Below are positions 1-20,013 of a stretch of 64,000 nucleotides of DNA, one piece after another. The notes under the pieces are model-generated. The model was not told the origin of the DNA. It searched no databases and worked only from the letters and a program-made list of their open reading frames with translations. The stretch's first letter is position 1, and the number at the start of each line of letters is the position of its first letter. This DNA is from Candidatus Vondammii sp. HM_W22. Lineage in GTDB: Bacteria; Pseudomonadota; Gammaproteobacteria; Chromatiales; Chromatiaceae. The position numbers and the translations under genes were made by a program. The stretch spans positions 248,001 to 312,000 of the forward strand of contig NZ_CP099567.1 of assembly GCF_022530855.2 (NCBI RefSeq), read 5' to 3'.

Positions 1-121
1 AAGTTACATTAAATTGCTTGAGAAAAATAGCCTTGGATTCTGGCGCGGACCGGATAACAAAAAGTGGTCGAAAAGACCGTTTAATCGACAGTGGTGATTT
101 TTCTTAATGCCTATTACCCAC

Positions 122-223
122 GACTCGTATTATGAGCGCCACATTCATCAATGGGGCAAATATAACCATAATCGGCCATATGGTCAATATTTCCCTATGA
201 TTCAGCAAGATAGATTAAAATGA
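122..223 (+). pseudogene. transposase C-terminal scrap (integrase type)
   Basis: An open frame ending in TGA at 221-223 reads like the end of a DDE integrase-type transposase: a W followed by YNHNRPYG, close to the W..YN..RPH signature near the C-terminus of IS3/IS481-type enzymes. No upstream catalytic part can be followed in the 121 bases before it, so only a tail remains. The family assignment rests on this short motif. The following 220 bases up to the next gene show nothing I recognise. Confidence 0.35.
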
Positions 224-444
224 GGGCTGTTGTTTAATCGCTCCGTGAAAGGGGATAGAGGTATCCATTCTAATTCCAAGAGACGCAATAAATACACCCC
301 CGCCGCCGACACTCTTGGAATAAGCGTATCCACACACTATCTTGAACATCAGGACGGGGTAAAAGCTTGTTGGCGGTAATTAAGCAAATGCCAATGAACT
401 CTACTCGGAACAGAGACTCAAAGTTGAATAAACAGGACCGTTAA

Positions 445-1137
445 ATGGAAACCATAGAGATTATTTCCTTGACACTTGGCGTAGCCTGGGCCTCGGGCAT
501 CAATCTATATGCCGCAGTATTGGTACTGGGATACTTTGGAATGACCGGTGATATAACGTTGCCACCAGGACTGGAACTGCTCTCAGACCCCATAGTTATG
601 GCAGCGGCCGGACTCATGTGCATGGTTGAGTTCGTTGCTGATAAAGCACCCGGTATCGACACCGGCTGGGATGCTTTGCACACCTTTATCCGAATACCGG
701 CCGGGGCTGTTCTGGCTGCCGGTATGGCAGAAGGGCTGGATGCAAGTCAGGCGGCAGAATTTGCCGCGCTACTTGTAGGTGGCGGTCTGGCTGCAACAAG
801 CCATTTCACCAAGGCGAGCAGCCGGGTGCTGATCAACACATCTCCAGAACCTTTCAGCAACTGGACGGCATCCATCACCGAGGACCTTGTGGTGATTGGC
901 GGCCTCTGGGCATCACTCCACTATCCCTGGCTGTTTGTTGCAGGCCTGATCGCTTTCACACTGCTGGTCATTTGGTTACTGCCGAAAATCTGGCGCACCC
1001 TGAGAGCATATTCCGGGCTATCGGTGAATTTTCGGTGGAAAAAAAGCAACAGTAGCAGACTCCGGACCATCAGGTGGAAAACAAAAATGAGTCGAAGCAG
1101 TCAAAAAGCCAAAGTCATGCTGAGAGGAGAAGCCTGA
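445..1137 (+). CDS. DUF4126 family membrane protein
   Basis: A 230-residue protein made of small-residue-rich hydrophobic segments, recognisable as the DUF4126 family: an N-terminal segment around residues 5-35 with the SGINLYAA motif, a conserved region FVADKAPGIDTGWD around residue 64, and further membrane segments at roughly 85-115 and 145-180. The family is an inner-membrane protein of unknown biochemical role. The C-terminal 45 residues are basic and low-complexity, probably a cytoplasmic tail. The ATG at 445 has an AGGACC-like ribosome site upstream. It ends one base before hemJ, so the two are probably co-transcribed. The family call is fairly secure; a function cannot be given. Confidence 0.85.
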   Translation: METIEIISLTLGVAWASGINLYAAVLVLGYFGMTGDITLPPGLELLSDPIVMAAAGLMCMVEFVADKAPGIDTGWDALHTFIRIPAGAVLAAGMAEGLDASQAAEFAALLVGGGLAATSHFTKASSRVLINTSPEPFSNWTASITEDLVVIGGLWASLHYPWLFVAGLIAFTLLVIWLLPKIWRTLRAYSGLSVNFRWKKSNSSRLRTIRWKTKMSRSSQKAKVMLRGEA

Positions 1138-1138
1138 C

Positions 1139-1564
1139 ATGCTCTGGATAAAAGCGGGTCATCTCATCTTCCTGATATCCTGGTACGTGGGCCTGTTCTA
1201 CCTTCCCCGCCTATTCGTTCACCACGCCATGTCAGAAGACCGTGCCACCAGAGAACGGCTCGAGATCATGGAGCGAAAGCTGTTCTGGTTCGTCACCCCC
1301 TGGGCAATGCTGACTCTCGCGCTGGGCTTTACATTGGCGGGGCTCTATGGCTGGGAAGCATTCAAAACCATGAGTTGGCTGCATCTAAAAATTATTCTGG
1401 TCACTATACTTGCGGGCTACTACATTTGGTGCGGCAAACTGATGATCCAGTTCCGCAACACAGATGCCAATCCCCATAGCCATGTATGGTTTCGGTGGTT
1501 CAACGAGTTCCCGCTGCTGATTCTAGTAGCAGTTGTTTTACTGACCATTTTAAAACCCTTTTAG
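1139..1564 (+). CDS. hemJ: protoporphyrinogen IX oxidase HemJ
   Basis: A 141-residue multi-pass membrane protein of the HemJ (UPF0093/CopD-like) family, which oxidises protoporphyrinogen IX to protoporphyrin IX, the penultimate step of haem synthesis, in the inner membrane. Visible family features are the N-terminal histidine in KAGHLIFLISWY, the following FYLPRLFVHH, the KLFWFVTPWA segment, W-LHLKI near residue 80, and the C-terminal WFRWFNEFPLL. Length is normal for the family. A GAGAGGAG ribosome site lies inside the end of the DUF4126 gene. The gene stops with TAG just upstream of an IS4 insertion that leaves it intact. hemL, another haem gene, lies 35 kb away. Confidence 0.88.
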   Translation: MLWIKAGHLIFLISWYVGLFYLPRLFVHHAMSEDRATRERLEIMERKLFWFVTPWAMLTLALGFTLAGLYGWEAFKTMSWLHLKIILVTILAGYYIWCGKLMIQFRNTDANPHSHVWFRWFNEFPLLILVAVVLLTILKPF

Positions 1565-1659
1565 CCGTTTTTTTGCCCATTTTAAAAAAACTAGAGCTGA
1601 GCTGTTCCAGGGGGGGTATTGAACAGATATTCAGGAAGAGAAAGAACGCCTCTGCGCCC

Positions 1660-2838
1660 AATGCCAGTAAGTTAAGCCGTAACCCATTGATTACAATGCC
1701 CGTTATTCTTTAGCTTATGTGAGAATTTTCGCGCATAATGTCTGCCCCCTCGAACAGCCTCAAATGTCATGGCAATGTAGTGAGTTGTTTGTTCAATCAA
1801 TGCTTTCACACCCACAGCTGCCTGCTGTATCAGAGCGATCAAGGTATGTTTCATTTTTGACAGGGCCTGGGCAAAGTTGACCCGATAAACATAGTGGTGC
1901 ATTTTGGTTCGACTCTGTACCTGTTTCTGTGCGGCCAACGCCATTAATGCCGTTAGATTTGCAGATACAATTTTGGCATGAAAATCCTGCCTCACAGACA
2001 GTGCTGATTTACCGGAGAAGTTTTCTATTTCAACCCACTGTTTGAGGCGTTTGTAGTTTTCCTCGACACACCACCGGAGGTGGTACAACGCCTTAAACTG
2101 ATTGGCATTATACAACATCGTATCCATGAGAAATGCATTATAACCTCTATCATAGATCACAAGGTCATCTTTACGGGCCCTCTCAAGGTGTAGGCGGCAC
2201 ATTGCCTCTCAGAAGCATGAGTAGAGGCTGGAATCAATGGCAGTATGGTTAAGCACATCGAAGTAGACTGATGCCAAACCCATAGGGCAATCAGCTTGGT
2301 TGTGCTTGCCTTTCTGAGCGCCAATAATGATGCACCACATCCTCTTCATTGGGTAAACGAATTTGTGAGCCATCAATCGCACAGAGTCGAAATCCATTCC
2401 ATTTTTGATAGCCGTTGAAACGATCATGGAAATCTTGTGTGATGATCTGATTCAGCTCAATAAATGCCGCATGAGAGAGCTGTTTTCTAGCTTGAAAAAA
2501 AGCAGATTTGGTGATTTCCTGAGCGGCCTGTTTTCGATTCTTGAGTGCTTTATAAAATCGATCAAGCTCCACCTGCGCAGCATTTTTCTGAGGTTTAGAA
2601 AATACAGAATCAAGGAGGGGAAACTGAGTTTACGATATACGCGTGAAACTGTTTTTTGAGAGGCGGTGTTTGATCTTAAAATGATTATCAGAGATAGTTG
2701 TATTTATGTAGGTATAAATAGATTCAAATGACCTTGGTAAGCTTCATATTGCGACCTTAATATCGTGGTAAATGTCGGCACTCATGGGGGTAATTATTAT
2801 AGCAGAATTAATGAGTTACGGCTTAACTTACTGGCATT
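1660..2838 (-). mobile_element. IS4-family insertion sequence with 12-bp target duplication
   Basis: The element is bounded by inverted repeats: AATGCCAGTAAGTTAAGCCG at 1660 and its near-perfect complement ending at 2838. The 12-bp sequence GCCTCTGCGCCC occurs directly on both sides (1648-1659 and 2839-2850), a clean target-site duplication of the size usual for IS4-family elements. It sits between hemJ and the convergent Fe-S gene without breaking either. Inside, on the minus strand, is one transposase reading broken into pieces. Perfect flanking repeats with a damaged transposase suggest insertion before decay but not long ago. Confidence 0.9.
1672..2572 (-). pseudogene. IS4-family transposase, frameshifted
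   Basis: Three minus-strand pieces read together as one DDE transposase. The N-terminal part (2572 to about 2291) includes LCAIDGSQIRLPN with the first catalytic Asp. The middle (about 2330-2209) reads CPMGLASVYFDVLNH. The C-terminal part (2202-1672) has VIYDRGYNAF with the second Asp and LRWCVEENYKRLKQWVE, where the E is the expected catalytic Glu. All catalytic regions can be found, but at least two frame changes separate them, so no single protein can be made. The upstream start is also eroded. Confidence 0.85.
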
Positions 2839-2875
2839 GCCTCTGCGCCCTTTTTTCATCGCTTCCCGGCGAGCA

Positions 2876-3256
2876 CTAACTGCACCCACCACCCTGGGAT
2901 GAGCCGCAGGTACCACAACCGCTACTACCAACAGGCTGCAGGTTGTTGAATACAAAGCTGGCATTGCCATCGCCACGGTCAACATAATCGATCTCTACAC
3001 CGCGCAGGTACTGCATGGTATCTGCATCCACAATGACATTGAAGTTATCACATTCCAGCGTGGAATCATTATCATTGAGTTGGTCAGTGAAGGTCATGCC
3101 GAAGCTGATGCCACTGCATCCACCTGGGGTGGCATAGACGCGAACGCCCTTGATCTCTTCTTCAACTTGGCCGATCAATTCCATCATCTTGCCTTGTGCC
3201 GGGCTGGTTAGGCTGAGCTCATCATCATTCAAAACGGTTGCGGTAGCTTCGCTCAT
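2876..3256 (-). CDS. HesB/IscA-type Fe-S cluster assembly protein
   Basis: A 126-residue A-type Fe-S carrier, which receives clusters from the ISC machinery and passes them to client proteins. The start MSEATATV (ATG at 3254-3256) is chosen because GGAGTACC lies just upstream; the open frame extends further but without family similarity. Family features are VRVYATPGGCSGISFGM with the first conserved Cys, the NFNVIVDADTMQYLRG segment, and a C-terminal cysteine cluster. The usual CGCG ending is here CGTCG followed by a Ser/Gly-rich tail ending GGGCS. It could be an ErpA-like or other IscA paralogue; I leave the symbol blank. It stands alone and converges with hemJ across the IS4 element. Confidence 0.85.
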   Translation of the reverse strand: MSEATATVLNDDELSLTSPAQGKMMELIGQVEEEIKGVRVYATPGGCSGISFGMTFTDQLNDNDSTLECDNFNVIVDADTMQYLRGVEIDYVDRGDGNASFVFNNLQPVGSSGCGTCGSSQGGGCS

Positions 3257-3344
3257 GCGAGGTACTCCAAAAATTGTTCGACAATGCGGGGCATCATAGC
3301 AGTACAAAGTAATCACAGCCACTTGCCTTGTGCAATATTTAGTC

Positions 3345-3402
3345 GTCCTTGAAGTATTAGGCCAGAGGATCTGGTTCCTTGAACCTTTTAGATCGGTGGA
3401 TC
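3345..3402. mobile_element. terminal scrap of an IS5-type element
   Basis: The stretch containing GGATCTGGTTCCTTGAACC matches, with small differences, sequences at about 23828 and, inverted, at about 36250. At 36250 this sequence is the extreme 3' end of a decayed IS5-type transposase region. Only the end is left here, upstream of the Fe-S protein gene. Confidence 0.5.
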
Positions 3403-3477
3403 CAAGTTGTAAGTTTACCACCTGCACTTTTCAGAAAGACTTCGTTTGGCGTCTAATAATTGAGGCATTTCTGAAGC

Positions 3478-4350
3478 CGATTGTTGAGTTTTTTCGCTAC
3501 AGTTGCGAACATTAGACCAGTGACCTTTCGCCAATTGATTCCTTTATAAAAACAATGATGTAGCAGTCCATTGGTATTTTCATTGGTGCCCCGTTGCCAG
3601 GAGGAATAAGGATCAGCAAAGTAAACATTCATGCCTGTGGCTTCTTCAATTTTCCTGAACTGAGCACATTCTTTACCGTTATCAACCGTCAGGTTTTACA
3701 CCATTTCTCAGGTATGACCTTAAGGTAGTTGTTGTCACCAGATAATAAAGTATCTGCTGATTTGTCGCTCAGTTTAGCAGCAACCAGTACGCGGCTCTTT
3801 TTTTCCACATGGGTGGCAATGCCACCTGAGCTCTTGGCTCCCTCAACGTTATCACCCTCCCAGTGGCCAAGGCGGCGATGGTTGCCAATACTCACAGGGC
3901 GATCATGAATGCTCACACGATGTGGTAATCAAACCACGCCCAGTCCCGTATTGCTGCTGTCTTAGACGCTTTTTGTGCCGCCTCAGTAGATGTTGGTACA
4001 AAAAACCGTCTTGTGCAGCATCCTCGTATATCCATCGATAGATACCTTCCGGGCTAATCCGCAGACATGCACTTCTAGGGTGATCTAGCTTGAGGCGTCC
4101 AGCCATTGTTTCCGGTGACCAATCTTCCTGTAACCGCTCGATGACATAATGCAGGTGTTTTTTTATGTGATCACCTGCGAGTGTGCCTCGGCTTCTTGCA
4201 TCGAACCATCGCACGTTTCTGTGCAAGCCCATCCTGGTAACAGGCTATGAGTCGACCATTGATCACTTCACGTGAGATGGTGGTGTGATGACGACCTAAA
4301 CGACGAACAATGCCTCTATAACTTAAACGCCAATGCAAAAGATGTATAGG
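3478..4350 (-). pseudogene. IS30-family transposase, broken
   Basis: Minus-strand fragments together cover nearly a whole IS30-type transposase. The N-terminal HTH region lies at about 4350-4235 (YRGIVRRLGRHHTTISREV). The middle (4232-3903) includes WSPETMAGRLKLDH and ISPEGIYRWIYED. A third piece (3916-3689) carries GHWEGDNVEGA with a catalytic Asp. The C-terminal piece (about 3690-3478) reads LTVDNGKECA and SSWQRGTNENTNGLLHH, the canonical IS30 end. At least three frame changes separate them. Partial copies of the same element lie at 18.2 and 21.15 kb. Confidence 0.85.
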
Positions 4351-5398
4351 CGAGCTTCTAAAAACCTTCCAAAATTAGCGATAATTAGTCAACAATTCAA
4401 CTAACTGTTGATAAAAATCATGCAACCGAGTTTTTTTGATCATCAAGACCGACTTGAACTCCTTGAGCAACAAGGAGACCTGCTGCCAAAGCTGGAAAGG
4501 ACCGTAGACTGGGCGGCTTTTCGGACGTTGCTGGGCTCAATTTATAAAAACAGTGGTCCCAGTAAAGGTGGGCGTCCACCTTACGATGCGGTACTGATGT
4601 TCAATTTGTCGGATGATCAAACAAAGCTCCAAATACGGGCTCGCTATAGCTTTTATTGTTTTCCTGGGCTGAGCCCGGAGGGTAAGGTACCCGATGCTAA
4701 AACAGTTTGGGTATATCGTGAGCGCCTGAAAGAACCGGGCCTTGTTGACAAACTCTTTTCAGAGCTGTTGATCCAGATTGATGCAGCAGGCTTCAGTGTT
4801 CGCAAGGGACAGATTGTAGATGCCGCTATCGTTCCAGCACCCAGGCAACATAATACGCGAGAGGAAAATAGGCAGATCAAAGCCGGGGATAGCACTGAGT
4901 ATGGAGTGATAACAAACGCCGCCAGAAGAATGTTGAAGCCCACTGGAACCATGAAGTCATTCGCAAGTACGCCATCACATCAGCAGAAGTCCACGATAGC
5001 CAGGTCTTCGAGGAACGGCTGGATGAGAACAATAATGGCAGTGTCTGGGTCGATTCTGCTTGCCGCAGTAGAACGGGAAGCCGCTTTACCGGGGTGCGCA
5101 TTACCGCAGTCAGATTCATCGCAAGTCGACATGTAAACGCCCCTAGAATGAACGGGAGCAAGAGGCAAACCGAAAACGATCAAGAGTTCGGGCTTGAGTT
5201 GAGCACGTGTTTGCCCAGCAGGCCAATCAACTAGTGCGTAGCATCGGCCAAGGCAGGGTCGGTGTGAAGATGGGTATGATGAATTTGGTGTATGACATGC
5301 GTCAATTGGTGTGGCTCTGGCCGGTTAAAGCGAGGTATGGATATGGATGTTGCCAAAAAACGAGTGTGAAGATACCGGGCTTCCCTGATTTGCAGAGA
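4351..5398 (+). pseudogene. IS5-family element copy 1, transposase broken
   Basis: The transposase begins at ATG 4420 or nearby (MQPSFFDHQDRLELLE) and shows the IS5 N-terminal domain with KGGRPPYDAVLMF, LSPEGKVPDAKTVW and IVDAAIVPAP, which contains the first catalytic Asp. Frame is lost around 4900, and the C-terminal HVFAQQANQLVRSIGQGRVG appears in another frame at about 5200. Compared with the copy at 24.7 kb it lacks 26 nt between two TTCA repeats, removing the VLALQHL segment. The element is followed immediately by an IS256 left end at about 5399. Confidence 0.8.
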
Positions 5399-6630
5399 CA
5401 GTCCTGAATGCTGTGTAACTACCTGTCATTAAACCCAAACAGGGTGAGGATAGGCAGACGATCGACAAGAAAGAACCCTAGGCGGCCGCTAATCACATCA
5501 AAACTGAAGAAGATCTCAACGAGTTTCGGCCAATGCTGCCCAGAATCACGGTCGATGCAGCACTCAACGTTGAACTAGCTGATCATCTTGGCTTTGCCAA
5601 ACATGAACAATCCGAAGCGAGTAATAGCCGCAACGGCACTACTGGCAAGACCTTGCAAACGGAGGATGGCCAGTTTGAACAGGATACTCCACGAGAAAGA
5701 GCGGGCAGCTTTAAACACCGGCCAGTTAAAAAGCACCAGCGTCGATTTACCTCAATGTATGACGATCCGCGAAAAGGAAATGTACGGAGTCGATGTCTCC
5801 GCCACACTCATATCCAAAGTTACCGATGCGGTTATCGAGCAGGTTGTTGAATGGTAATTTCGCCCCCTGGATGCGATTCAGCCTATTGTTTATCTGGGCA
5901 GCATTGTCGTTAAAATCAGGCAAGATAAGAAAGTGATTTATCTCGCTCTGGGCGTCAACCTGGAAGGCCACAAGAAATTATTGGGGATGTGGCTGTCGGA
6001 GAATGAGGGTGCCAAGTTCTGGCTGAACGTGCTGACAGAGCTTCAGAATCGCGGTGTGAAGGATATTTTGATTGCCTGTGTCGATGGCTTAAAGGGCTTT
6101 CCTGATGCCATCAACACGGCTTTTCCAAATGCCCAGATCCAGCTCTGTATTGCGCATATGCTACGGAACTCGATGAAGTATGTGCCCTGGAAAGACTACA
6201 AGCCTGTCACGGCTGATTTGAAAAATATTTATCAGTCCATCACCGGGGAAGAAGCCTTACCGGCGCAGGATAAATTCTCTGATCGATGGGACAACAAATA
6301 CTCCAGGATCAGCCGCTCCTGGCGTGCTCATTGGCAGAACCTGAACACGCCGTTCAACTACCCGGATGACAGACGAAAAGTGATCTACACGACCAACGCC
6401 ATTGAGTCGCTGAACAGCGTCATTCGCAAAGCGATCAAGAAGCGGAAGTTGTTTCCAACCGATGATTCGGCGAAGAAGGTAATCCACCTGGGAATCCAGG
6501 CCGCATCGAAAAAGTGGACAATGCCGATCCGTCATTGGAAACCAGCACTGAATAGATTTATGATTGAGTTCGAAGAATGCTTGGCGGAATATATCTAACT
6601 TTGGTTGTTGCACAGAAAACTTTATAGGCT
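5399..6630 (+). mobile_element. IS256-family element (first copy)
   Basis: The left end AGTCCTGAATGCTGTGTAAC near 5400 resembles GGTGTCCTGAACTCTGTG at 18746, the left end of a related IS256. Near 6610-6630 a weak complementary match (GTTGCACAGAAAACTTTAT) marks the right end. Between them is one plus-strand IS256 transposase in pieces. It lies directly after an IS5 remnant and before an ISL3 remnant. Confidence 0.7.
5480..6598 (+). pseudogene. IS256-family transposase, broken N-terminal half
   Basis: The C-terminal two thirds (5933-6598, 221 residues) read cleanly as an IS256/mutator-type transposase: YLALGVNLEGHKKLLGMW, DILIACVDGLKGFPDAI with the second catalytic Asp, IQLCIAHMLRNSMKYV, and TTNAIESLNSVIRKA with the catalytic Glu. 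The N-terminal part is scattered over two frames between about 5530 and 5930 (VDAALNVELADHLGF, then VKKHQRRFTSMYD, then YGVDVSATLISKVTDAV). At least two frame changes and a stop near 5856 break it. It is closely related to the inner copy at 18.8-20.0 kb. Confidence 0.85.
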
Positions 6631-6637
6631 CCTTGTT

Positions 6638-6717
6638 GCGGAAACCTCTGCCACGCACTTTGATTATCTTGATTCGGCTGTTGAGACCCTCTGCCGGACC
6701 ATTACTTACTTCCAAAA
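6638..6717 (-). pseudogene. ISL3-family transposase C-terminal scrap
   Basis: Read on the minus strand this encodes LEVSNGPAEGLNSRIKIIK and GRGFRNKE, almost identical to the C-terminal region of the ISL3 transposase at about 18050-18150. It is cut at 6717 by the left inverted repeat of the Tn3-family element. Confidence 0.8.
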
Positions 6718-6756
6718 GGGGTTCTGGGGACATTCCGTCCTAAAGTGACACTTATC
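6718..6756 (+). repeat. Tn3 left terminal inverted repeat
   Basis: A 39-base terminal repeat starting GGGGTTCTGGGGACATTCCG and ending GACACTTATC. It matches the reverse complement of 9897-9935 except at one base. It is the expected transposase binding end. Confidence 0.9.
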
Positions 6757-6856
6757 GCTACAGCCCACGCCTCATAAGGCTTCTAGAGGTGCCTTAATTT
6801 TCAAAATCACTGCAATATCCCAATTATAGTAATATTCCGGCTTTTACGAGAAGCCT

Positions 6857-9800
6857 ATGCCTTATAAAGAACGCCTGACCGTACTCCACGAAGCAGAAAT
6901 TAACGATTTATATGGCGTTCCCAGCCTGTCACTGGAAGAAAAACGTATCAGTTTTACTCTGAATGATCTGGAGCAGGACGTTATTAAATCCATCAGGGAT
7001 CGCAATCATAAATGCTATGCTATTGCTCTGCTGGGTTACTTTAAGATCAAGCCCATTCAGCTCAATCCGGCCTACAAGGAATTGAAAGCAGATCTCACCT
7101 TTATTGCTGAAGAATATTTCCCTAAATTTAAAGTCCCTCGCTTCAGTGTTAGCAATAAGCAGAAAACACGTATCTACGACAAGATTATAAACCTTCAGGG
7201 ATTCAAAACATGGTGTGTGGAACAACATCAGGAACCTCTCATTACCTATTTGCAATAGGTTGCTAAATCCTGGATTGAGCCGCGCTTTTTATTTGATGCC
7301 TGCACCGAATACTTAGCTCGAAATCATACAGGAATCCCTAAATATACCGTGCTTCAGCGAATTATCAGTCAGGTAATCAAACAGGAACGTAAGCGACTTT
7401 CTGATCTATTAAAGACAACCATATCAGATGAATTAGCTACTAACTTGGCTGAGTTAGTTGATGGAAAAGGTATGCTAACCGTTAAAGAACTTAAGCAGGC
7501 GGCGAAAAGTTTTAATGCTCCAGAATTGGAGAAAGAGTTGAACGTCAACAAGTTGATTCAGCCCTGGATGGATGAAGTTAATCAAGTGGCCTCTGCTCTA
7601 TCACTATCGCAACAAAACCGACTGCACTATGCGGCGATGGTTGATTACTACTCTATAACCAAGCTTAAACGCTTCGACCGTGTCACGCAGCAGCTTTATT
7701 TACTTTGTTATCTTCAGGAGCGGGTACAAATCAATATTGAACGTTTGGCTTATGGGTTTATTTATCATGTCCGAAAGTTACGTGAAAAAGCTAAAGCGTA
7801 TGCCAAGGAAATGGCCTATAAAGATTGGGATGGCGCGGTAGTAAATATTAGCAAAGCCGCTGAATTATTATACTTTTTTATTGACGACACCATTAATGAC
7901 CATGTGTCATTTAGACAAATAAAACAACGGGTACAAGGCTTGCTTGGAGCACGGTAAATAGAATCACTGTGCTTGTATCTGAAGAAACAAAAACGCACGA
8001 AAAATGATTACATCTGGGAATTTTATGATAAGCAGCGTGAACTGATTCAGCACTTAATACGCCCCATTTTTTTATGCCTGATCTTTGAAGGATCAGACAA
8101 TACACAGGCTTTATCTGCACAATTAAATAGAATGAAAAAAGAGTTGTTAGGTGCTGGTGAATTAGCATCGTCAGATCGACGATTGATTCCAGCCAAACAC
8201 CAATTGTATGTTATCAATATTGATAACAACGTACTCTCTGAGCGTTACGAGTTGATGCTGTATTTGTCAGCTAAAAATAATCTTGGTGGGAAACTCTTTA
8301 TACCAACGGCTATCAAATATCGTGCATTACACGATGACCTCGTTGGAGATATCCCCTGGGCACAGAAAGACAAGCTACTTAAAGGTTCCATGCTAGATAG
8401 CATGAATACAGAGCCTGCCCAGCGGGTTAAATCGATGGAGAAAAAGATGAACGATAAGCTGCAACGGGTTGGCCAGCGCATTGATGAGGGCGACAATCGA
8501 AATGTGGTATTGCGTAATCGCTCAGGAAAAATTCAATGGAGGTTGCCGTATTCAGGCACAAAATCGGCTTTAAACAATCCCTTTTTCGATCGTATGAAAC
8601 CGATTAACATTGCCGATGTATTACGCTTCGTTCATCAGGAAACAGGATTTTTAAAGCACTTTGAGCATGTTCGCCAGGTACAGTCCGGACAGAGTGATCA
8701 TTTGAATGATTTACTGGCGGCTCTCATTGGCAATGGAACCTATTATGGCCTACACGGCATGGCCAGCATCTCTGATAGATCATATGATCATCTACGCACA
8801 GTACAGGCCAATTATTTGCGACCTGAAACGCTAAACTTCGGCAATGATGCAATTAACGATGCGACAGAGAAATTATCAATCTTCAAGCATTACAATATCC
8901 AAAAAGGACTCATTCATGCCAGTGCTGACGGGCAAAAATTCGAATCACGGTTAGAGACTTTTAAAACTCGCTATTCATCTAAATATTTTGGCACGAATAA
9001 AGGACTAACATCGATGAACTTGATTGCCAATCATGTAGCCTTGAATGCCCAGATTATTGGTTCCAATGAACATGAATCTCATTTTATTTTGGATCTGCTT
9101 CATAACAATACCTCGGAGATTAAGCCGGATATTTTGTCAACGGATACGCACGGCGTTAATCATGTTAACTTTGCTTTGCTGGACCTGTTTGGCTATATCT
9201 TTGCGCCGCGCTATGCTCAGTTTGGAACCGTGATATCAGATCTTTTTGATGTAAATGAGGGAGAAGACAATAAGGCAACGCTCTCATTAAAAAAGCCTAT
9301 TAATACAGAATTAATTATCGATGAGTGGGATACGATACAGCGCATTATTATATCACTACAGCAGAAGACGATAACGCAGGCGACCCTTGTTAGAAAGCTT
9401 TCTGGCTATAGTCAAAACCACCCCTTGCTGAAAGCTTTAACTGAATATAATCGTATGCTCAAGGCCATGTACTTACTGGACTATATTGATGATGCCAGTT
9501 TAAGAACTTATGTACAGCGAGCCTTGAATCGTGGGGAAGCTTATCATCAATTACGGCGTGCTATTGCACATGTGAATGGCAATCGTTTCCAGGGAAAATC
9601 AGACGATGAGATTGTCTTGTGGAATGAATGCGCGAGGCTATTAACCAACGCCATTATCTATTTTAATTCGCTGATACTGACGCGATTACTTGAGCATTTT
9701 GAGGGGGAAAGTGACGATAAGAAGTTGGAAATTATTAAGCAAGTTTCGCCAGTGGCTTGGCATAACATCAATTTGAACGGAACTTACAGCTTTAGCTTTG

Positions 9801-9859
9801 AACAAAACCTACTAGATTTGGATGAAATTATGCAATCAATCGTGCAAAATGAAAATTAA
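6857..9859 (+). pseudogene. tnpA: Tn3-family transposase TnpA with two in-frame stops
   Basis: A single reading frame of 1001 codons, the normal length of a Tn3 TnpA, runs through this region interrupted by TAG at 7256-7258 and TAA at 7955-7957. No frameshift is involved: the three open pieces are collinear in the same frame. The N-terminal piece contains the DUF4158-type region (SLSLEEKRISFTLN). The last 628 residues carry the DDE catalytic domain, with STDTHGVNHVNFALLDLFGY containing the conserved Asp, FAPRYAQFG, and the C-terminal WNECARLLTNAIIYFNS with the Glu region. Inactivation by two nonsense changes alone implies recent loss. Read-through is possible in principle but there is no sign of recoding. 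Confidence 0.9.
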
Positions 9860-9896
9860 GCCACCTCTGTAGGCCTTGTGGGGTATGGGCTGTAGA

Positions 9897-9935
9897 GATA
9901 AGTGTCACTTTAGGACGGAATGTCCACAGAACCCC
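9897..9935 (-). repeat. Tn3 right terminal inverted repeat
   Basis: Reverse complement of the left end, differing by one base (TGTGG here versus TGGGG in the left repeat). It directly abuts the truncated membrane-protein gene at 9936. Confidence 0.9.
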
Positions 9936-10031
9936 AAGCAGATACACGGCATATTCCGCTTTTCCCTGGTGAATAGACCAGTGCGCCATTAGCGCATAGA
10001 TCAATACCATTAAGGTAAATAATGCTGCCAC
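9936..10031 (-). pseudogene. 5' end of a small COG4648-like membrane protein, cut by Tn3
   Basis: Only the first 32 codons remain: GTG at 10029-10031 leads into a hydrophobic segment (LFTLMVLIYALMAHWSI) and the frame runs into the Tn3 right repeat at 9935. It starts 9 bases after the acyl carrier protein gene ends, so the two were one operon. In aryl-polyene-type clusters an ACP gene is commonly followed by a small membrane protein of the COG4648 type; position and hydrophobic start agree, but the identification is inference because so little is left. Confidence 0.45.
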
Positions 10032-10040
10032 TAAATTCTC

Positions 10041-10298
10041 TTATGCTTTACGTATTTCCACAAAACTTGCCAGTGTAGCAAGCGAACTGAATATCTGCTG
10101 GTTTTGCTGATCATCAGATTTGACCTGTATCCCATAATTCTGAGATATCGCCAGCACTAACTCCAGTGCATCAATGGAATCCAGCCCTAAACCATCACCA
10201 AACAAGGGGGCGGCTGGGTCTATGTCATCTATAGATACCTCTTCCAGGTTCAGAGTATCAATTATCATAGCCGCAATTTCTCTGACGAATCCGCCCAT
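10041..10298 (-). CDS. acyl carrier protein
   Basis: An 85-residue acyl carrier protein. The phosphopantetheine attachment site is in GLGLDSIDALELVL, with the modified Ser in DSID. It carries acyl chains as thioesters for a fatty-acid- or polyketide-like synthase. The second Met (ATG at 10296-10298) is preferred because AAGGAAG lies a few bases before it; a Met five codons upstream is possible. It is unlike the housekeeping AcpP in sequence (IIDTLNLEEVSIDDIDP) and has no fab genes next to it. The neighbours (truncated COG4648-like gene, GT2, methyltransferase) point to an aryl-polyene-type cluster. It looks intact but its partners are lost. Confidence 0.88.
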   Translation of the reverse strand: MGGFVREIAAMIIDTLNLEEVSIDDIDPAAPLFGDGLGLDSIDALELVLAISQNYGIQVKSDDQQNQQIFSSLATLASFVEIRKA

Positions 10299-10538
10299 CC
10301 AATCTTCCTTCATTTATCGATTAATCAAAGCCGGGCATTATTGCACAAGGTGAGTCAGAGGTGAATATAAATCCTACGGAAAAAATCCACCCTCCCGAGC
10401 ATCTGGAGAGTCTTCTGGAAATTTGCCCTGTCAGAGATAACACAGCATCGTTCGATCACACAGCGGAAAAATCACGGGCCAAAAGCGTTTTGCAGAGAGT
10501 GGTTTCGAGAAAGGCTGAAAAATCGTATTTCGTCCTAT
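10299..10538. other. no recognised gene
   Basis: Between the ACP and the YdcF-like gene there is a 61-codon open frame on the plus strand (10361-10546) with no family resemblance I can name. It overlaps the end of the YdcF-like gene. I treat the stretch as non-coding or as eroded sequence. Confidence 0.4.
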
Positions 10539-11198
10539 TTAACTGATCTTTTTCAGCATGCGCTTGTTTTTTATTAGAAAAACAAAAATACGTCCGCTCC
10601 AGTACCAGTGTAGGAAAACAGCCTCTAATAAGAGATTGGAGACTCGATGCCAAGGCCTGCATTTATCTTCCGCAGCACAGGGAGTGATCTCTAACCCCAA
10701 CCCCTGTGCCATGGTCAGAACGCGAAACAGGTGATAGCGATTACTGATGACCACTACTTGGGAATGATCTTCGAACCAGGGATGCGCATGGCGAAAATTC
10801 TCTAGTGTATTTACAGATAGCTCCTCCAGGGCAATAGCGGCTGATTCCACTCCTGCCTGAATGAGATAGTTGGCTCCTGCATTGGCTTCGCTGATTTCAC
10901 CGGATGCACCACCCCCTATCACCAGGACCTCAGGCCTATCCCAAACCTGATACAGTGTCAGTGCCCGATCTAGCCTCAGCCGAAAATCAGCAGAAATTTC
11001 TCCTTGCTGCAATTGTTTGCCGAGCACAGCCACAGCGTCCCTGAAATCTGGCTTTGTCGGTGCTTTCATACCTGTTCGAATCACCTGAAACAGCAGCCAA
11101 AAATGAGTGATCCCTAACGTTACCAGACCAACCACCAAAGACAGCATTAAGGTAAAAACGCCATCAGCATCGAAGTCTCGGTTGCGAAACTTAATCAA
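10539..11198 (-). CDS. YdcF-like DUF218 membrane-anchored protein
   Basis: A 219-residue protein with two N-terminal hydrophobic residues stretches (about 15-45) and a DUF218 domain. Family signatures are AVAVLGKQL, RLDRALTLYQ, VLVIGGGASGEISEA and SVNTLENFRHAHPW, followed by VVVISNRYHLFRVLTMAQ. Related proteins (YdcF, SanA, ElyC) act in or near the cell envelope; the substrate is not known. The frame opens with TTG at 11196-11198, overlapping the end of the GT2 gene by 8 bases, which argues for translational coupling; an internal ATG is the alternative. It ends in a basic tail with a hydrophobic stretch. Confidence 0.8.
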   Translation of the reverse strand: MIKFRNRDFDADGVFTLMLSLVVGLVTLGITHFWLLFQVIRTGMKAPTKPDFRDAVAVLGKQLQQGEISADFRLRLDRALTLYQVWDRPEVLVIGGGASGEISEANAGANYLIQAGVESAAIALEELSVNTLENFRHAHPWFEDHSQVVVISNRYHLFRVLTMAQGLGLEITPCAAEDKCRPWHRVSNLLLEAVFLHWYWSGRIFVFLIKNKRMLKKIS

Positions 11199-11925
11199 GT
11201 TTAGGTTTCACGATGGAACGGTACAAGCCCGGTAAATACATCCTCCTGGAAATGAGTCTGCCTCCCACCATTCGGGTGATCCGTAATATATCAGTGACTG
11301 ACTGAAAATGAATTGGCCGGAGATCGGCACCATAAATCGCCGGGATTTTTATATTGTATACGGCTATTCCTCGCCAACCTGCTTCAATAATAATCTCGCT
11401 TTCGAACACGAACCCCCTATCCCGACTGGTACCAATAGACAAATCGGCTAGAAGTTCAATTGGATATAACCGGAAGCCGGATTGAGAATCCTCCATCGGC
11501 ATGCCCGACGCCCAGGCAATCCAAAAATTGGCGAATCGATTGGCATAGTAGCGCCGTCGCGGGATAACCTCTCGATCATGCAGGCGCGAACCAATAATAA
11601 TATTTTTTGTATGCCCTTGTGCCGCTTTAATGAGACGCGGAATATCCTCGGGGCGATGTTGGCCATCCCCATCCAGGGTGATCACGCCATCTACTGACAG
11701 ATCCATCGATGCCTGCATGCCTCGCCACAGAGCAGCTGCTTTGCCAGCGTTGGGTTCGTTTCGCAGCAACATAATTGGCAGGTCCGCAAGCTGCTCACTG
11801 GTACCGTCGATCGAACCGTCATCTACCACAATTACGGGTAAGTCATGGCTCAAGGTGCGTTCAACCAAATTTCGAATTGTACCAGCCTCATTATAGGCTG
11901 GTATTACCACTGCATAAGACTTCAT
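11191..11925 (-). CDS. GT2-family glycosyltransferase
   Basis: A 244-residue GT-A fold glycosyltransferase. The nucleotide-sugar site is visible as VVIPAYNEAGTI, VVDDGSIDGT and ITLDGDGQHRPEDIP, the last supplying the metal-binding Asp motif. DSQSGFRLYP follows, as in dolichyl-phosphate-mannose-synthase-like enzymes. There are no long C-terminal membrane segments, so it is probably a soluble or peripheral enzyme. It starts at ATG 11923-11925 and overlaps the YdcF-like gene. Such GT2 enzymes occur in aryl-polyene clusters, in keeping with the ACP and methyltransferase here. The methyltransferase starts divergently 64 bases away, so a shared promoter region lies between 11926 and 11988. Confidence 0.85.
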   Translation of the reverse strand: MKSYAVVIPAYNEAGTIRNLVERTLSHDLPVIVVDDGSIDGTSEQLADLPIMLLRNEPNAGKAAALWRGMQASMDLSVDGVITLDGDGQHRPEDIPRLIKAAQGHTKNIIIGSRLHDREVIPRRRYYANRFANFWIAWASGMPMEDSQSGFRLYPIELLADLSIGTSRDRGFVFESEIIIEAGWRGIAVYNIKIPAIYGADLRPIHFQSVTDILRITRMVGGRLISRRMYLPGLYRSIVKPKLD

Positions 11926-11988
11926 AAACTAGGCCTTCCGCCAAATACTTCGGGCCATTCTACATCAAGTTGGGATATACAGGTGGGT

Positions 11989-13110
11989 ATGTGGGAGAAT
12001 AGGAAGCTGTCGAAATTTCCACTGTCAGGCTATTTGATGAAACCCTTTTTTAAACCCTCAAAGCTTTCTGCCCTGGAAGCCAAATATGAGGCACAGAAAA
12101 TTGCCTTTGCGCCCATCATCTTTCAAGTAGTGCGCACCATGCGCAATCTCGGTATTCTAGGACAGTTGGATAAGGCAGGCAAAAATGGTATTGATGTACA
12201 GACCATTGCGGATAACACTGGACTCACCCTTTATGGCGTTGAAACCCTGATAGAAAGCGGCCTTTCATGCCATATGGTTGAAAAGAATACAGAGGGATTG
12301 TTTCAGTTAAGTAAGACGGGTTGGTTCCTGTTGCAGGATGAAATGACCCGCATCAATATGGATTACAATCATTACATCTGTTACAAGGGATTGTATGATC
12401 TGGACAAGTCGATACAGACTGGCAAGCCGGTTGGCCTGAAGGTATTTGGCAATCAATGGGAAACTCTATACCAGGCATTACCTCACCTCCCATCACACAT
12501 CAAGGAAAGCTGGTACACTTTTGACCACTACTATTCGGATGGCACCTATCCACTTGTACTGCCCATCATCCTCCGAGATAAACCAAAGACCTTGATGGAT
12601 ATAGGCGCCAATGTAGGCAAGTTCTCCATCCTGGCGGCGACCTATAATCCTGATCTGAAAATCACTATGCTGGACCTGCCTGATTAACTTAAAAATGCCA
12701 TCGAAAACGTAGAAAAGGTGGGGTTCAGTGACCGAGTGAATAGTGTGGCCATCGACCTGCTGAATCCTGAAGCGAGGATTCCTTCAGGTGTAGACGTGTT
12801 CTGGCTCAGCCAGTTCCTGTCTTGCTTTGGGGGTAAAGAAATAGTGAGCATTCTAAAGCGGGTAGCTGCCACCATGCTACCGGATTCTACGCTCTATATT
12901 ATGGAAACCTGCTGGGACAGATAGCAGCACGAAGCCGCAGCTTATTCATTGATCAACACATCCCCTTATTTCACCTGCATGGCCAGCGGAAACTCAAAAA
13001 TGTATCACTCAAAAGAGTTGATGAAATATATAGACGAAGCTGGTTTGCGGGTGCGAGAAATCCGTGATCATCTTGGTATCTGCCACACTCTGTTTGAATG
13101 TGTCTTGTAG
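11989..13110 (+). pseudogene. SAM-dependent methyltransferase with two internal stops
   Basis: One frame of 374 codons from ATG 11989 (preceded by AGGTGGG) to TAG 13108-13110 encodes a class I methyltransferase with an N-terminal winged-helix dimerisation region (VQTIADNTGLTLYGVETLIE) and a SAM site (LMDIGANVGKFSILAA, then TMLDLPD). It is interrupted by TAA at 12685-12687, right after the SAM motif, and TAG at 12922-12924. The rest (VDVFWLSQFLSCF, ETCWDR, YFTCMASGNSKMYHSKEL) is in frame. I recognise the overall pattern, including FDHYYSDGTYPLVLP, as that of methyltransferases in aryl-polyene/xanthomonadin-type clusters. Two nonsense changes and no frameshift suggest recent loss. Confidence 0.85.
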
Positions 13111-13402: not shown

Positions 13403-13433
13403 GCCTGTGGTCACTCTTTAAGTGACCACAGGC
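13403..13433. repeat. perfect 12-bp hairpin at the transposase break point
   Basis: GCCTGTGGTCAC, seven-base loop TCTTTAA, GTGACCACAGGC. The right arm is the coding sequence for the EPVV end of the transposase; the left arm is its inverted copy and replaces the normal continuation. No T-run follows. Confidence 0.75.
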
Positions 13434-14554
13434 TCGATGCCAGCTCGTCTTCTGAAACGTTTTCTGGCTAATGCCATGGCTTCTTCTGAGGTATTCTTCC
13501 TAGCAGGCTTTGGTGTTACTATCTGGGTGTCATTAACCTTTGATTTGCCCCGATAACCTCGATCAGCAATACCCACTTTGGGTACTCGATTGATGAGACG
13601 TTTCACCTGTGCCAAGACCTCAGGTACGGTGTGACCATCAAATACATTCTTCTCAAAAGCCAGGGCACCAATCACAATGCCCGCGTCCCTTGTGGTGGTG
13701 ATTGATGCCTTGGTGCCAAACTCATAACGCTGGTGGGCCTTGCCTTTGCTCATACAGTAAACATGAGATTCATGTAGGCTGTACAACTTGTTTTTATCAG
13801 CACGCTTCTGATTCAGCATGCGCTGGTACAGGGCGAACTTTTCTGCATAGAATTTCTGTTGTTCTGCGGTCATCTTACGCTGTATTCCACGCAGTAATCG
13901 GCCGCTGATGGTCTTTAATCGCTTGACGGCCTTACGTGCCTTTTTACGATTCCTCGGATGTGTGGCAAATCGGGTGGGGAGCTTGAGAATTTTTACTTCC
14001 TTCTCATGGCTTCGACTGAGCACGATACCTTCTGCTCGGGCCATCTTGAGTAACTGCCCGTGTATCTTTCGGTACTGCTTTGCATCAGTTGGAAAGGTAA
14101 TGTTTTTCTCTTGTACGGTAGTGTCGATACACATTTCATCTTCGATCGCCTTTTCTTGATGTAAGGCGATAGAGGTAGCCAGGACCTTTTCAAAACCTTC
14201 GTTGCCAATACGCTTTCTGAAGTAAGTCAGGTCGGAGGGGTCACAAGGAAGTTGCCATTGGAATTCGATCTCACCCGTAAAACTCTGGTAGTAGGGATTT
14301 TGTATCCAGCGTTGAATCAGAACCTCGTCACTGAGGTCTTCCAGATGCTTGAGTATCGAGAGGCCCACCATTAGGCGGATGGGTTTTGAGGGCTTTCCAA
14401 GATGAGAATAAAGCGGGGCAAATTCAGCATCAAAATATGACCAGTCTATCTGTCTGGCCAGTAGCAAAAGTGGATGCTTGGGGTTCAGCTGATCCAGTAA
14501 GTTCTGGTGCAGGAAACTTTGCTGGTTGGGATTGGCTGTCTTGGGTTTGCTCAA
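13418..14554 (-). pseudogene. IS5-family transposase, C-terminus displaced
   Basis: 378 residues read without interruption: the N-terminal domain (IDWSYFDAEFAPLYSHLGKPS), the first catalytic Asp in DEMCIDTTVQEKN, KLYSLHESHVYCMSKGKAH, FDGHTVPEVLAQV and GIADRGYRG with the second Asp, and RRAGIEPVV at the end. The intact family continues with GHLK and about 50 residues. Instead a stop follows, and the expected tail (FLKGFAEDQINLLMAAG, about 13400-13250) is in another frame beyond a hairpin at 13403-13433. The catalytic Glu in GIEPV is present. Activity is doubtful because the conserved tail is lost. Confidence 0.85.
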
Positions 14555-15134: not shown

Positions 15135-16943
15135 TCAGTTAATGGGGTGCTCCCCGATGAGATCGAGAAACTGCTGGCCGTATCGCGTCAGCTTGGTCTC
15201 GCCAACACCGCTGATATAACGCATCCGCTCAAGGTTTTCCGGCCTCAGCTCGGCCATCTCTTCCAGGGTGCTGTCATGAAAAACGATATAAGGCGGTACA
15301 CCCTGCTCCTGGGCGATCTCCAGCCGCCGTGCCCGCATCGCGTCGAGCAGAGGCAGGTTCCAGGACTGCAGCTTGGTCTGCGAGCGCTTTTTCTTCTCTT
15401 TTTTCTCGGCTCGTTTCTGATGTCTGAGATGAAGCAGGCATTCACTCTTGAGCAGCGGACGGCATTTTTCAGTGAGACGCAGGGCGCCATGGCCGTCGGC
15501 ATCGATATCGAGATAACCCAGGGAGATCAATTGGCGGAACAGGCCGCGCCACTCCACGCCGTTTAGTTCGTCGCCAATGCCAAAAGTCGTGATCTGGTGA
15601 TGCTGGAAACGCTCGATACGCTCATCCTCCTTACCTTTCAATACATCGATCAGGTAGTTGACGCCAAAGCGTTGACCGGTGTGGAAGACGCAGGAGAGTG
15701 CCTTGCGGGCCGATTCGGTGGCATCCCAGGTCTCCGGCGGATTGAGGCAGTTGTCGCAGTTGCCGCAGGGTTGCTCCAGGGTCTCACCAAAATAGCCCAA
15801 CAGGGCCTGGCGCCGGCAGCCGGTGAGGTCACAGAGACCAAGCATTGCTTCCAGTTTGTGGTGGGCGATACGCTTGAATTGCTCTTCTGCATCGGTATTC
15901 TGGACAAACTGCCGCAAGGTGATGACATCTTGCAGACCAAAAGCCATCCAGGCATCGGCGGGTTCTCCGTCGCGACCGGCGCGGCCGGTTTCCTGGTAGT
16001 AGGCCTCTATGCTTTTGGGCAGGTTGAGGTGGGCGACGAAGCGCACGTCAGGTTTATCTATACCCATGCCAAAGGCGATGGTGGCGCAGATGATCACCCC
16101 CTCTTCACGGAGAAATTGTTCCTGATTTTTATGCCTTGTTTCACTCGTCAGTCCTGCATGATAGGGCAGTGCCTTACGACCGCGAGAGGCCAGCCATTGG
16201 GCAATATCCTCGACTTTTTTCCGTGATAAGCAGTAGACGATGCCGGCATCTTCCGGATGTTCCTGCTCCAGGAAACGCCAGAGCTGGTCTCTTCCATTCT
16301 GTCCCTCTGTAATGGTGTAGCGAATATTGGGGCGGTCAAAACTGTTGGTGAAAACTTTTGCGCTCTGTAGTCCGAGCTGCTCGATAATCTCCTGCTGGGT
16401 GCGCTGATCGGCAGTGGCGGTGAGCGCAATCCGTGGTATTTCCGGATAGCGTTCTGTGAGTAGTGAGAGGCGTTGATACTCTTTTCGGAAATCATGGCCC
16501 CATTGAGAGACGCAGTGAGCTTCATCAATGGCGAAGAGGGTAATCTGGATGCGGTCAAGAAGCCGCAGTGTCTGTTCTGTGAGTAGACGCTCCGGGGCGA
16601 TATAGAGCAGTTTCAGCTCACCATTCAGGAGGGCTTGTTCAGTATTTCGCCGGGTCGCGGCATCCAGAGTGGAGTTGAGAAAAGCGGCTTGAATGCCAAG
16701 TTGCTTCAAGGCGCTCACCTGATCCTGCATCAATGCAATCAGGGGAGAGATAACAATACCGACGCCTTCACCAACCAGTGCGGGGATCTGGTAACAGAGC
16801 GATTTACCACCGCCTGTGGGCATCAGGGCCAAGGCATCCTGCCCGTTAATGACAGTCTCAATGATCTCCGCCTGATTATGGCGAAATTCGCTGTAGCCGA
16901 AGGTCTCGTTTAGTATTTTTTTTACGCGTTGCATCTGGATCAT
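15135..16943 (-). CDS. recQ: ATP-dependent DNA helicase RecQ (core)
   Basis: 602 residues of a 3'-5' DNA helicase acting in recombination and fork repair. Domain order: helicase domain 1 with MPTGGGKSLCYQIPAL (Walker A, about residue 40) and AIDEAHCVSQWGHDFR; helicase domain 2 with GIVYCLSRKKVE and QETGRAGRDGEPA; a zinc-binding RQC region with the cysteines of CGNCDNC; and an HRDC domain (MRARRLEIAQEQGVPPYIVF) ending about residue 598. The length equals that of the shorter E. coli-type enzyme, so it may work as it stands. The C-terminal HTH_40 extension has been lost by a one-base shift at the stop. Start ATG at 16941-16943; monocistronic. Confidence 0.92.
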   Translation of the reverse strand: MIQMQRVKKILNETFGYSEFRHNQAEIIETVINGQDALALMPTGGGKSLCYQIPALVGEGVGIVISPLIALMQDQVSALKQLGIQAAFLNSTLDAATRRNTEQALLNGELKLLYIAPERLLTEQTLRLLDRIQITLFAIDEAHCVSQWGHDFRKEYQRLSLLTERYPEIPRIALTATADQRTQQEIIEQLGLQSAKVFTNSFDRPNIRYTITEGQNGRDQLWRFLEQEHPEDAGIVYCLSRKKVEDIAQWLASRGRKALPYHAGLTSETRHKNQEQFLREEGVIICATIAFGMGIDKPDVRFVAHLNLPKSIEAYYQETGRAGRDGEPADAWMAFGLQDVITLRQFVQNTDAEEQFKRIAHHKLEAMLGLCDLTGCRRQALLGYFGETLEQPCGNCDNCLNPPETWDATESARKALSCVFHTGQRFGVNYLIDVLKGKEDERIERFQHHQITTFGIGDELNGVEWRGLFRQLISLGYLDIDADGHGALRLTEKCRPLLKSECLLHLRHQKRAEKKEKKKRSQTKLQSWNLPLLDAMRARRLEIAQEQGVPPYIVFHDSTLEEMAELRPENLERMRYISGVGETKLTRYGQQFLDLIGEHPIN

Positions 16944-18745: not shown

Positions 18746-20013
18746 GAGGGTGTCCTGAACTCTGTGTAACTGTCTATCATTAAACCCAAGCGTAGTTGAG
18801 GATATGCACTATGAACAAGAAAGAACTACAGGCGATCGCTCATGCGGCCGCTAAAAATATCAAGACGGAAGACGACCACAAAGACTTCCAGCAGATGCTA
18901 ACCAAGATTACGGTCGAAGCGGCACTGAACGCTGAGTTAGATGATCATCTTGGCTTTGAAAGGCACGAGCAGTCCGAAGCTGACAATAACCGCAACGGCT
19001 ATGCCAGTAAGACTAACCGAACGGAAGCTGGCCAGTTCGAGCTCGATACACCACGCGACAGAGCTGGGAGTTTCGAGCCCAAGCCCGTTAAAAAAACACC
19101 AGCGTCGATTTACTTCCATGGACGACAAGATTATTTCCTTGTATGCCCAGGGCATGACAACACGAGAAATCGTCACGACCGTTAAAGAAATGTACGGTGC
19201 TGATGTCTCCGCCACCTTGATTCCCAAAGTGACTGACGCTGTTATTGAACAAGTGATTGAATGGCCATCTAGGCCACTGGATGCGGTCTATCCCATTATT
19301 TACCTGGATTGTATTGTCGTAAAAATCCGGCAAGACAAGAAAGTGATCAATAAGGCAATTTATCTGGCACTGGGCGTGAACATGGAGGGCCACAAGGAAT
19401 TGTTGGGGCTCTGGCTGTCAGAGAATGAGGGTGCCAAGTTCTGTCTCAATGCACTCACAGAGCTCCAGAATCGCGGCGTGAAGGGCTTTCCAGACGCAAT
19501 CAATACAGCGTTTCCCGAGACTCAGATCCAGCTCTGTATTGTTCACATGGTGCGCAACTCGATGAAGTATGTGCCCTGGAAAGACTACAAGGCAGTGACG
19601 GCAGACCTGAAGAAAATATATAAGCCTGTCACCGAAGATGAAGCGCTACTGGAACTTGATAATTTCTCTAACCGATGGGATGACAAATATCCTCAGCTCA
19701 GCCGTTCGTGGCGTAGCCACTGGCACAATCTTAATACCCTGTTTGGCTACCCTGAGGACATCCGCAGGGCAATCTATACAACCAATGCCATCGAGTCAAT
19801 GAACAGCGTGGTTCGCAAGGCAATTAAAAAACGGAAGCTATTTCCGACCGACGACTCGGCAATGAAAGTGGTGTATCTGGCGGTGCAGCAAGCATCAAAA
19901 AAATGGACCATGCCGATTCGCAATTGGAAACCAGCACTGAATAGATTTATGATTGAGTTCGGAGAACGCTTGGCGGAGTACATTTAACCCGGGCAGTTAC
20001 ACGGAAATCGTTA
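18746..20013 (+). mobile_element. inner IS256-family element
   Basis: The left end GGTGTCCTGAACTCTGTGTA at about 18746 pairs imperfectly with GCAGTTACACGG and GTTACACC near 19990-20013. The plus-strand transposase fills it. It separates the C-terminal piece of the outer, minus-strand IS256 transposase from the rest of that gene. No convincing target duplication was found. Confidence 0.75.
18826..19987 (+). pseudogene. inner IS256 transposase: frameshift and catalytic deletion
   Basis: Starts at ATG 18811 (MNKKELQAIAHAAAKNIK) or nearby. The N-terminal part reads to KPVKK at about 19095. There an extra A in a run of seven shifts the frame, and the rest (HQRRFTSMDDKIISLYAQGM to the end, 19987) is in another frame. 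Relative to the copy at 5.9-6.6 kb, 33 nt are missing after NRGVK at about 19483, in frame, deleting DILIACVDGLK including the second catalytic Asp. TTNAIESMNSVVRKA with the Glu is intact. It cannot be catalytically active. Confidence 0.85.

Follow-up and report, generated by a model that had tools for sequence, protein, structure and literature searches.

We found that a short group of genes beside a Tn3-family element is, in all likelihood, what remains of one end of an aryl-polyene biosynthesis cluster of xanthomonadin/arcuflavin-like type, whose core has been lost and whose remaining genes have been orphaned. The window, the whole stretch of 64,000 nucleotides that was analyzed, corresponds to positions 248001-312000 of one 3,352,437-base contig, a complete genome. 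The G+C content of the window is 51.4%, and two 16S genes are present in its genome.

Organization of the locus

From left to right, the locus consists of the Tn3-family element, the start of a membrane-protein gene, an ACP gene, a DUF218 gene, a GT2 glycosyltransferase gene, and a methyltransferase frame. The four parts from the membrane-protein start to GT2 are on the minus strand, and the methyltransferase is divergent on the plus strand. The features are listed below with the evidence for each.

6718..9935, plus strand: Tn3-family element with tnpA as its sole gene (DDE_Tnp_Tn3 E 4.1e-125, DUF4158 E 1.8e-14; inverted-repeat searches and alignment)
9936..10031, minus strand: membrane-protein start of 32 codons, taken as COG4648/ApeG-like (shuffle-tested alignment, ACP adjacency)
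10041..10313, minus strand: ACP of aryl-polyene type, intact, 90 aa (PF00550 E 3.8e-10; NF006617)
10539..11198, minus strand: DUF218 (YdcF/SanA-like) protein, intact (PF02698 E 6e-23)
11191..11925, minus strand: GT2 glycosyltransferase, intact (PF00535 E 3.7e-22; loci and tree)
12037..13110, plus strand: FlxJ-like methyltransferase pseudogene (PF21212 E 4.4e-15 in the N-terminal part; NF053543 E 1.5e-75 in the first part)
13418-14554: further transposase gene, right of the methyltransferase
15135-16943: recQ, right of the methyltransferase and the transposase gene

Other transposase genes or fragments, of the DDE_Tnp_1, DUF772, and Mutator families, were seen around the locus (1672-6598, 13418-14554, and 18941-19987).

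The window ACP scored 112.5 bits in NCBIfam NF006617 (PRK09184), over the cut-off of 70 bits for a dedicated aryl-polyene ACP. It shares 73% identity with its counterpart in a relative's cluster (L107). Only two PP-binding proteins were found in the window's genome, the window ACP and one linked to FabF. The frames that the earlier note had described as intact, ACP, GT2, and YdcF-like, are so: the last is the DUF218 (YdcF/SanA-like) protein, and the three match PF00550, PF00535, and PF02698, respectively.

The membrane-protein frame starts at 10031 and ends after 32 codons at 9936, abutting the inverted repeat of the Tn3-family element. Its 32 residues align with the N-termini of ACP-adjacent proteins in relatives, and the score was reached or exceeded by 0 of 1000 shuffles against L035, 1 against L102, and 2 against L025. 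The same alignment was weaker against the nearest relative, L107 (27 of 1000), and against L101 (150 of 1000), so the assignment of the fragment comes partly from gene order; the ACP-adjacent gene position is common to L025, L035, L101, L102, and L107. The COG4648 label is likewise given by gene order, as in the E. coli list, and the proteins of the relatives have no Pfam match.

Along its whole extent, the methyltransferase frame can be aligned with an intact relative of 360 aa at locus L058 (66% identical over its length), and the two in-frame stops noticed earlier were located at 12685-12687 and 12922-12924. FlxJ (NF053543) is the sole NCBIfam model listed for it, with 254 bits for the window part and 430 bits for the intact relative, against a cut-off of 560 bits. 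By profile, it is therefore a predicted FlxJ-like methyltransferase below the curated cut-off.

Gene neighborhoods of relatives support an aryl-polyene pathway

GT2 matches were obtained in 33 of 38 whole genomes, most of them to distant GT2 proteins. Querying with GT2 gave 30 named loci, many on short contigs or with cut flanks, and an aryl-polyene ketosynthase was present in the fetched flank of 13 of them (L035, L036, L038, L039, L041, L043, L045, L048, and L052-L056), with 49-60% identity to the protein of genome G021. A fourteenth ketosynthase match, at L058, was left out of the count: it is 35% identical, FabF-like, and beside an AcpP-like gene. The other parts were found among the 30 loci as follows: acyltransferase 20, PF13723-type protein 15, MMPL 13, AMP-ligase 12, ACP 8, DUF218 8 (in each case accompanying GT2), COG4648-like gene 7, and methyltransferase 1. 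Since the methyltransferase was found only in that one locus (L058) and in genome G009, it is no regular member of the cluster.

Two relatives carry more complete sets. On one contig, G021, of the same family, has a ketoreductase (KR), two ketosynthase-type proteins (PF13723 and PF00109), MMPL, a lipid A-type acyltransferase, AMP-ligase, an ApeP-like dehydratase (PF22817, below cut-off), an ACP and, adjacent to it, a protein that matches no Pfam family, DUF218, and GT2. L035 has the set of G021 and, in addition, LolA as well as an ApeI-like dehydratase (PF22818, below cut-off). Its ketosynthase passes NF006618 (523 bits, cut-off 407), and its best PDB match is 6qsp_A, named beta-ketoacyl synthase by the tool, which we take to be the ApeO:ApeC complex.

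The GT2 tree placed the window's protein as sister to that of a Sedimenticola MAG (L058) with support of 99/94 and 70% identity. In this MAG, as in the window, a methyltransferase is divergent from GT2-DUF218. A second contig has a halogenase-like gene divergent from the ACP, a COG4648-like gene, AMP-ligase, a dehydratase relative, and the beginning of an acyltransferase gene, and a third has an MMPL relative (2.0e-138). The halogenase-like gene (L107:11360-12715, PF04820 E 4.2e-33) is of the flavin-dependent kind, and because of its position divergent from the ACP, a halogenated aryl polyene is a possible product of the Sedimenticola relative.

Two further patterns were observed among the 30 loci. 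A small uncharacterized protein of 132-140 aa lies near GT2 or ACP in nine of them (for example L035:11584-12006, L058:11449-11868, and L025:3116-3514); the copy in L035 matched no NCBIfam model, and the searched stretches of the window gave no significant match to the protein. Seven methanotroph loci (L044, L046, L047, L050, L051, L060, and L061) have GT2 and acyltransferase, with no other cluster query in the flank.

Taken together, sequence comparison supports a putative aryl-polyene, xanthomonadin/arcuflavin-like pathway for the genes of the window. The earlier note had grouped the ACP, membrane-protein start, GT2, and methyltransferase under this type, and profiles and gene neighborhoods agree with it; the profile check it proposed gave the dedicated-ACP match, and the neighborhoods and the GT2 tree gave the ketosynthase in 13 of 30 loci and the Sedimenticola relative.

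Core genes searched for were not found in the window's genome

No ApeO-type aryl-polyene ketosynthase (PF00109) was found in the window's genome at 1e-60. Its sole PF00109 protein is FabF (TIGR03150, 657 bits, cut-off 494), which adjoins an ACP and a ketoreductase-like gene. AMP-ligase had no match in the genome at 1e-5, and three of five genomes matched in the same search; the MMPL/RND exporter had none at 1e-3, and four other genomes matched at 4.6e-72 or better. For the PF13723-type second ketosynthase-like protein, those stretches of the window that were searched gave nothing significant. The genome-wide searches covered the ketosynthase, AMP-ligase, and MMPL. Ketosynthases and transporters, which the earlier note had described as absent nearby, are thus absent from the locus as far as searched, and genome-wide for the ketosynthase and MMPL. 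The remainder of the cluster, sought as that note had proposed, was not found in the genome for the ketosynthase, AMP-ligase, and MMPL; among relatives, G021 has all three, and the Sedimenticola MAG has AMP-ligase and an MMPL relative.

In the same-genus genome G001, there was no ketosynthase at 1e-60, no AMP-ligase at 1e-5, and no ACP; its GT2s were all distant (best 6.0e-16), and MMPL gave a single weak match (1.9e-4). This counts against a loss, since it leaves presence of the cluster in the genus ancestor unsupported, and speaks for the alternative that the genes came as a fragment by horizontal transfer, never forming a working pathway in the lineage. The patchy distribution in the family points the same way, with an aryl-polyene ketosynthase in 46 of the 194 family genomes drawn (17 of 61 genera). 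However, GT2 groups with the Sedimenticola MAG, and the 70% identity between the two is in the range seen for fatty-acid-locus proteins of the window's genome compared with the same MAG (FabF 78%, AcpP-like 75%, and ketoreductase-like, or FabG-like, 66%), so vertical descent is plausible. The divergent methyltransferase beside GT2 in both the window and the MAG also argues against transfer of a fragment, which we regard as very improbable.

The remaining intact genes have not decayed

Near-invariant sites were kept at 11 of 11 positions in ACP, 21 of 22 in DUF218, and 38 of 39 in GT2 (alignments of 14, 11, and 34 rows, respectively). In the relative-rate test, the changes in the window lineage and in that of the relative were 8 vs 8 for ACP (p = 1.0), 28 vs 19 for DUF218 (p = 0.24), and 17 vs 20 for GT2 (p = 0.74), with no significant excess; for the methyltransferase they were 25 vs 15 (p = 0.15), also not significant. 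Strong relaxation of selection was therefore not seen in any of the four. We left dN/dS unused because synonymous sites were saturated or nearly so. With sites kept and no rate excess, the ACP, DUF218, and GT2 genes have either been orphaned for only a short time or are still in use.

Continued use would make the three genes a trimmed, still useful envelope operon, with GT2 glycosylating another lipid, for example, and the fatty-acid synthase serving the ACP. The intact frames, the near-invariant sites, and the unraised rates are as expected of such an operon, and L033, L037, and L058 have GT2 and DUF218 without an aryl-polyene ketosynthase in the fetched flank. However, L033 is a 3.4-kb contig, the contig of L037 begins 1.5 kb from its GT2, and the genome of L058 has, as described above, the ACP, AMP-ligase, and dehydratase on another contig and the MMPL relative on a third. 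Further, the adjoining methyltransferase is broken, the operon is truncated, and recent orphaning predicts the same pattern of conservation. We therefore consider a useful operon unlikely, and give little credence to the related idea that selection kept the ACP, DUF218, and GT2 after loss of the polyene synthase and that they now serve a different envelope lipid. The reading we prefer remains the leftover end of a cluster.

The breakpoint at the Tn3-family element

The element is 3,218 bp long with 86-bp inverted repeats, and DDE_Tnp_Tn3 between the repeats places it in the Tn3 family. Its tnpA is broken into three frames (6857-7258, 7349-7957, and 7973-9859). Insertion of Tn3-family elements produces a target-site duplication of 5 bp. 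At the window copy there is none, the left flank being CAAAA and the right flank AAGCA. Among 12 copies, paired by nearest ends, the duplication was absent in 10, including the window copy, and present in 2. The cluster proteins had no significant match in window positions 1-6717 or 13111-64000 (best E 0.048).

A clean insertion of the element into the membrane-protein gene is thus unlikely, since the duplication is absent and no cluster protein matched significantly left of the element; for the same reasons, we favor a deletion or rearrangement. The earlier claim that the gene had been cut at codon 32 by the Tn3 element stands in that the frame ends there, at the element's end, and needs refining in that the missing duplication speaks against cutting by insertion.

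In the whole genome, 37 repeat ends were found. When up to 1.4 kb of outward flank at 30 of these ends was searched for the rest of the cluster, only the window's own end matched at E 0.01. Two of these 30 ends belong to the window copy and three to a 67% relative. The best matches of the other ends had identities of 98.2-99.8% across 110 to 1545 bases, with the exceptions of L092 (96.8%) and L093 (97.8%). The truncation would be explained by a recently spread family with frequent rearrangements at its ends.

Neither the window copy nor six other whole copies (L115-L120) showed an uninterrupted full-length tnpA, the longest frame being 729 aa. The window copy, L116, and L118 have a break near element position 1240-1260 in common, suggesting transposition in trans of a copy whose tnpA was broken.

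Discussion

By analogy with E. coli and Azoarcus, a working pathway would load an aryl acid onto the dedicated ACP by the AMP-ligase and extend it by the ketosynthase pair, the ketoreductase, and the dehydratases. The methyltransferase might modify the head group, GT2 and acyltransferase would attach the product to a lipid, and MMPL and LolA proteins would export it. In the window, nothing is left in place from codon 33 of the putative COG4648-like gene onward. The breakpoint at the inverted repeat most likely arose by deletion beside, or recombination between, copies of the element. The ACP, DUF218, and GT2 would then be intact orphans, unable alone to make a pigment.

The intact frames, the lack of a significant rate excess, and the close similarity of the transposon copies fit with a recent loss. 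The recent loss of a membrane pigment pathway that the earlier note had suggested is supported in the same way by the missing core genes, the intact frames, and the unraised rates.

The host context is probably also that of an eroding genome. Ca. Vondammii deminuti HMS1 is an endosymbiont of the tubeworm Sclerolinum annulatum, with a genome of 3.35 Mbp on one contig, two rRNA operons, and a G+C content of 50.41% (PMC10300362). It has 1,057 transposase genes and has lost many functions, an erosion driven by mobile elements (PMC10300362). The window's genome is probably the shrinking genome of such a tubeworm symbiont. The words polyene, pigment, and glycosyltransferase are missing from the main text of the HMS1 paper, so the loss of an aryl-polyene pathway is undescribed there under those words (PMC10300362); 'aryl polyene' was likewise missing among the matches listed in our literature search. 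Beyond the earlier note, we add a search for core genes across the whole genome, a closer type, and the deletion-like breakpoint.

This is an ordinary but clear case of one more pathway lost in an eroding symbiont, with few genes left beside a mobile element. An envelope pigment pathway, whose aryl-polyene product is an antioxidant in E. coli (PMC8253772), appears to have been caught mid-loss in a probable eroding symbiont, before the remaining genes decayed and with a mobile element defining the breakpoint. It would add one specific lost trait to an erosion so far reported in general terms, and GT2, DUF218, and ACP could serve as markers to date the loss of the pathway in siboglinid symbionts.

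Among known systems, the closest type is xanthomonadin/arcuflavin. The aryl-polyene cluster of E. coli CFT073 (apeA-apeR) lists ACPs, then the COG4648 protein ApeG, then an acyl-ACP synthetase, as well as the SAM methyltransferase ApeB and a combined glycosyltransferase/acyltransferase, ApeJ (PMC8253772). Compared by gene list, the window shares the ACP, the start of a putative COG4648-type neighbor, the methyltransferase, and the glycosyltransferase; unlike the window, the E. coli table has one combined ApeJ, two ACPs, and no DUF218 protein (PMC8253772). In the arc list of Azoarcus BH72, the glycosyltransferase is separate and is accompanied by a methyltransferase, an ACP, a dehydratase, an acyltransferase, LolA, an exporter, ketosynthases, and a halogenase, with the hypothetical gene arcU between ACP and AMP-ligase (PMC3949708). 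Unlike this cluster, the window's genome lacks the ketosynthase, AMP-ligase, and exporter that were searched for, and its methyltransferase is broken. Again by gene list, the window has in common with arc the GT2, methyltransferase, ACP, and start of the ACP-adjacent gene, and the nearest relative (L107) also has a halogenase-like gene. The gene content of the Sedimenticola MAG is closer to the arc list of Azoarcus than to that of E. coli, in which ApeJ is a combined enzyme.
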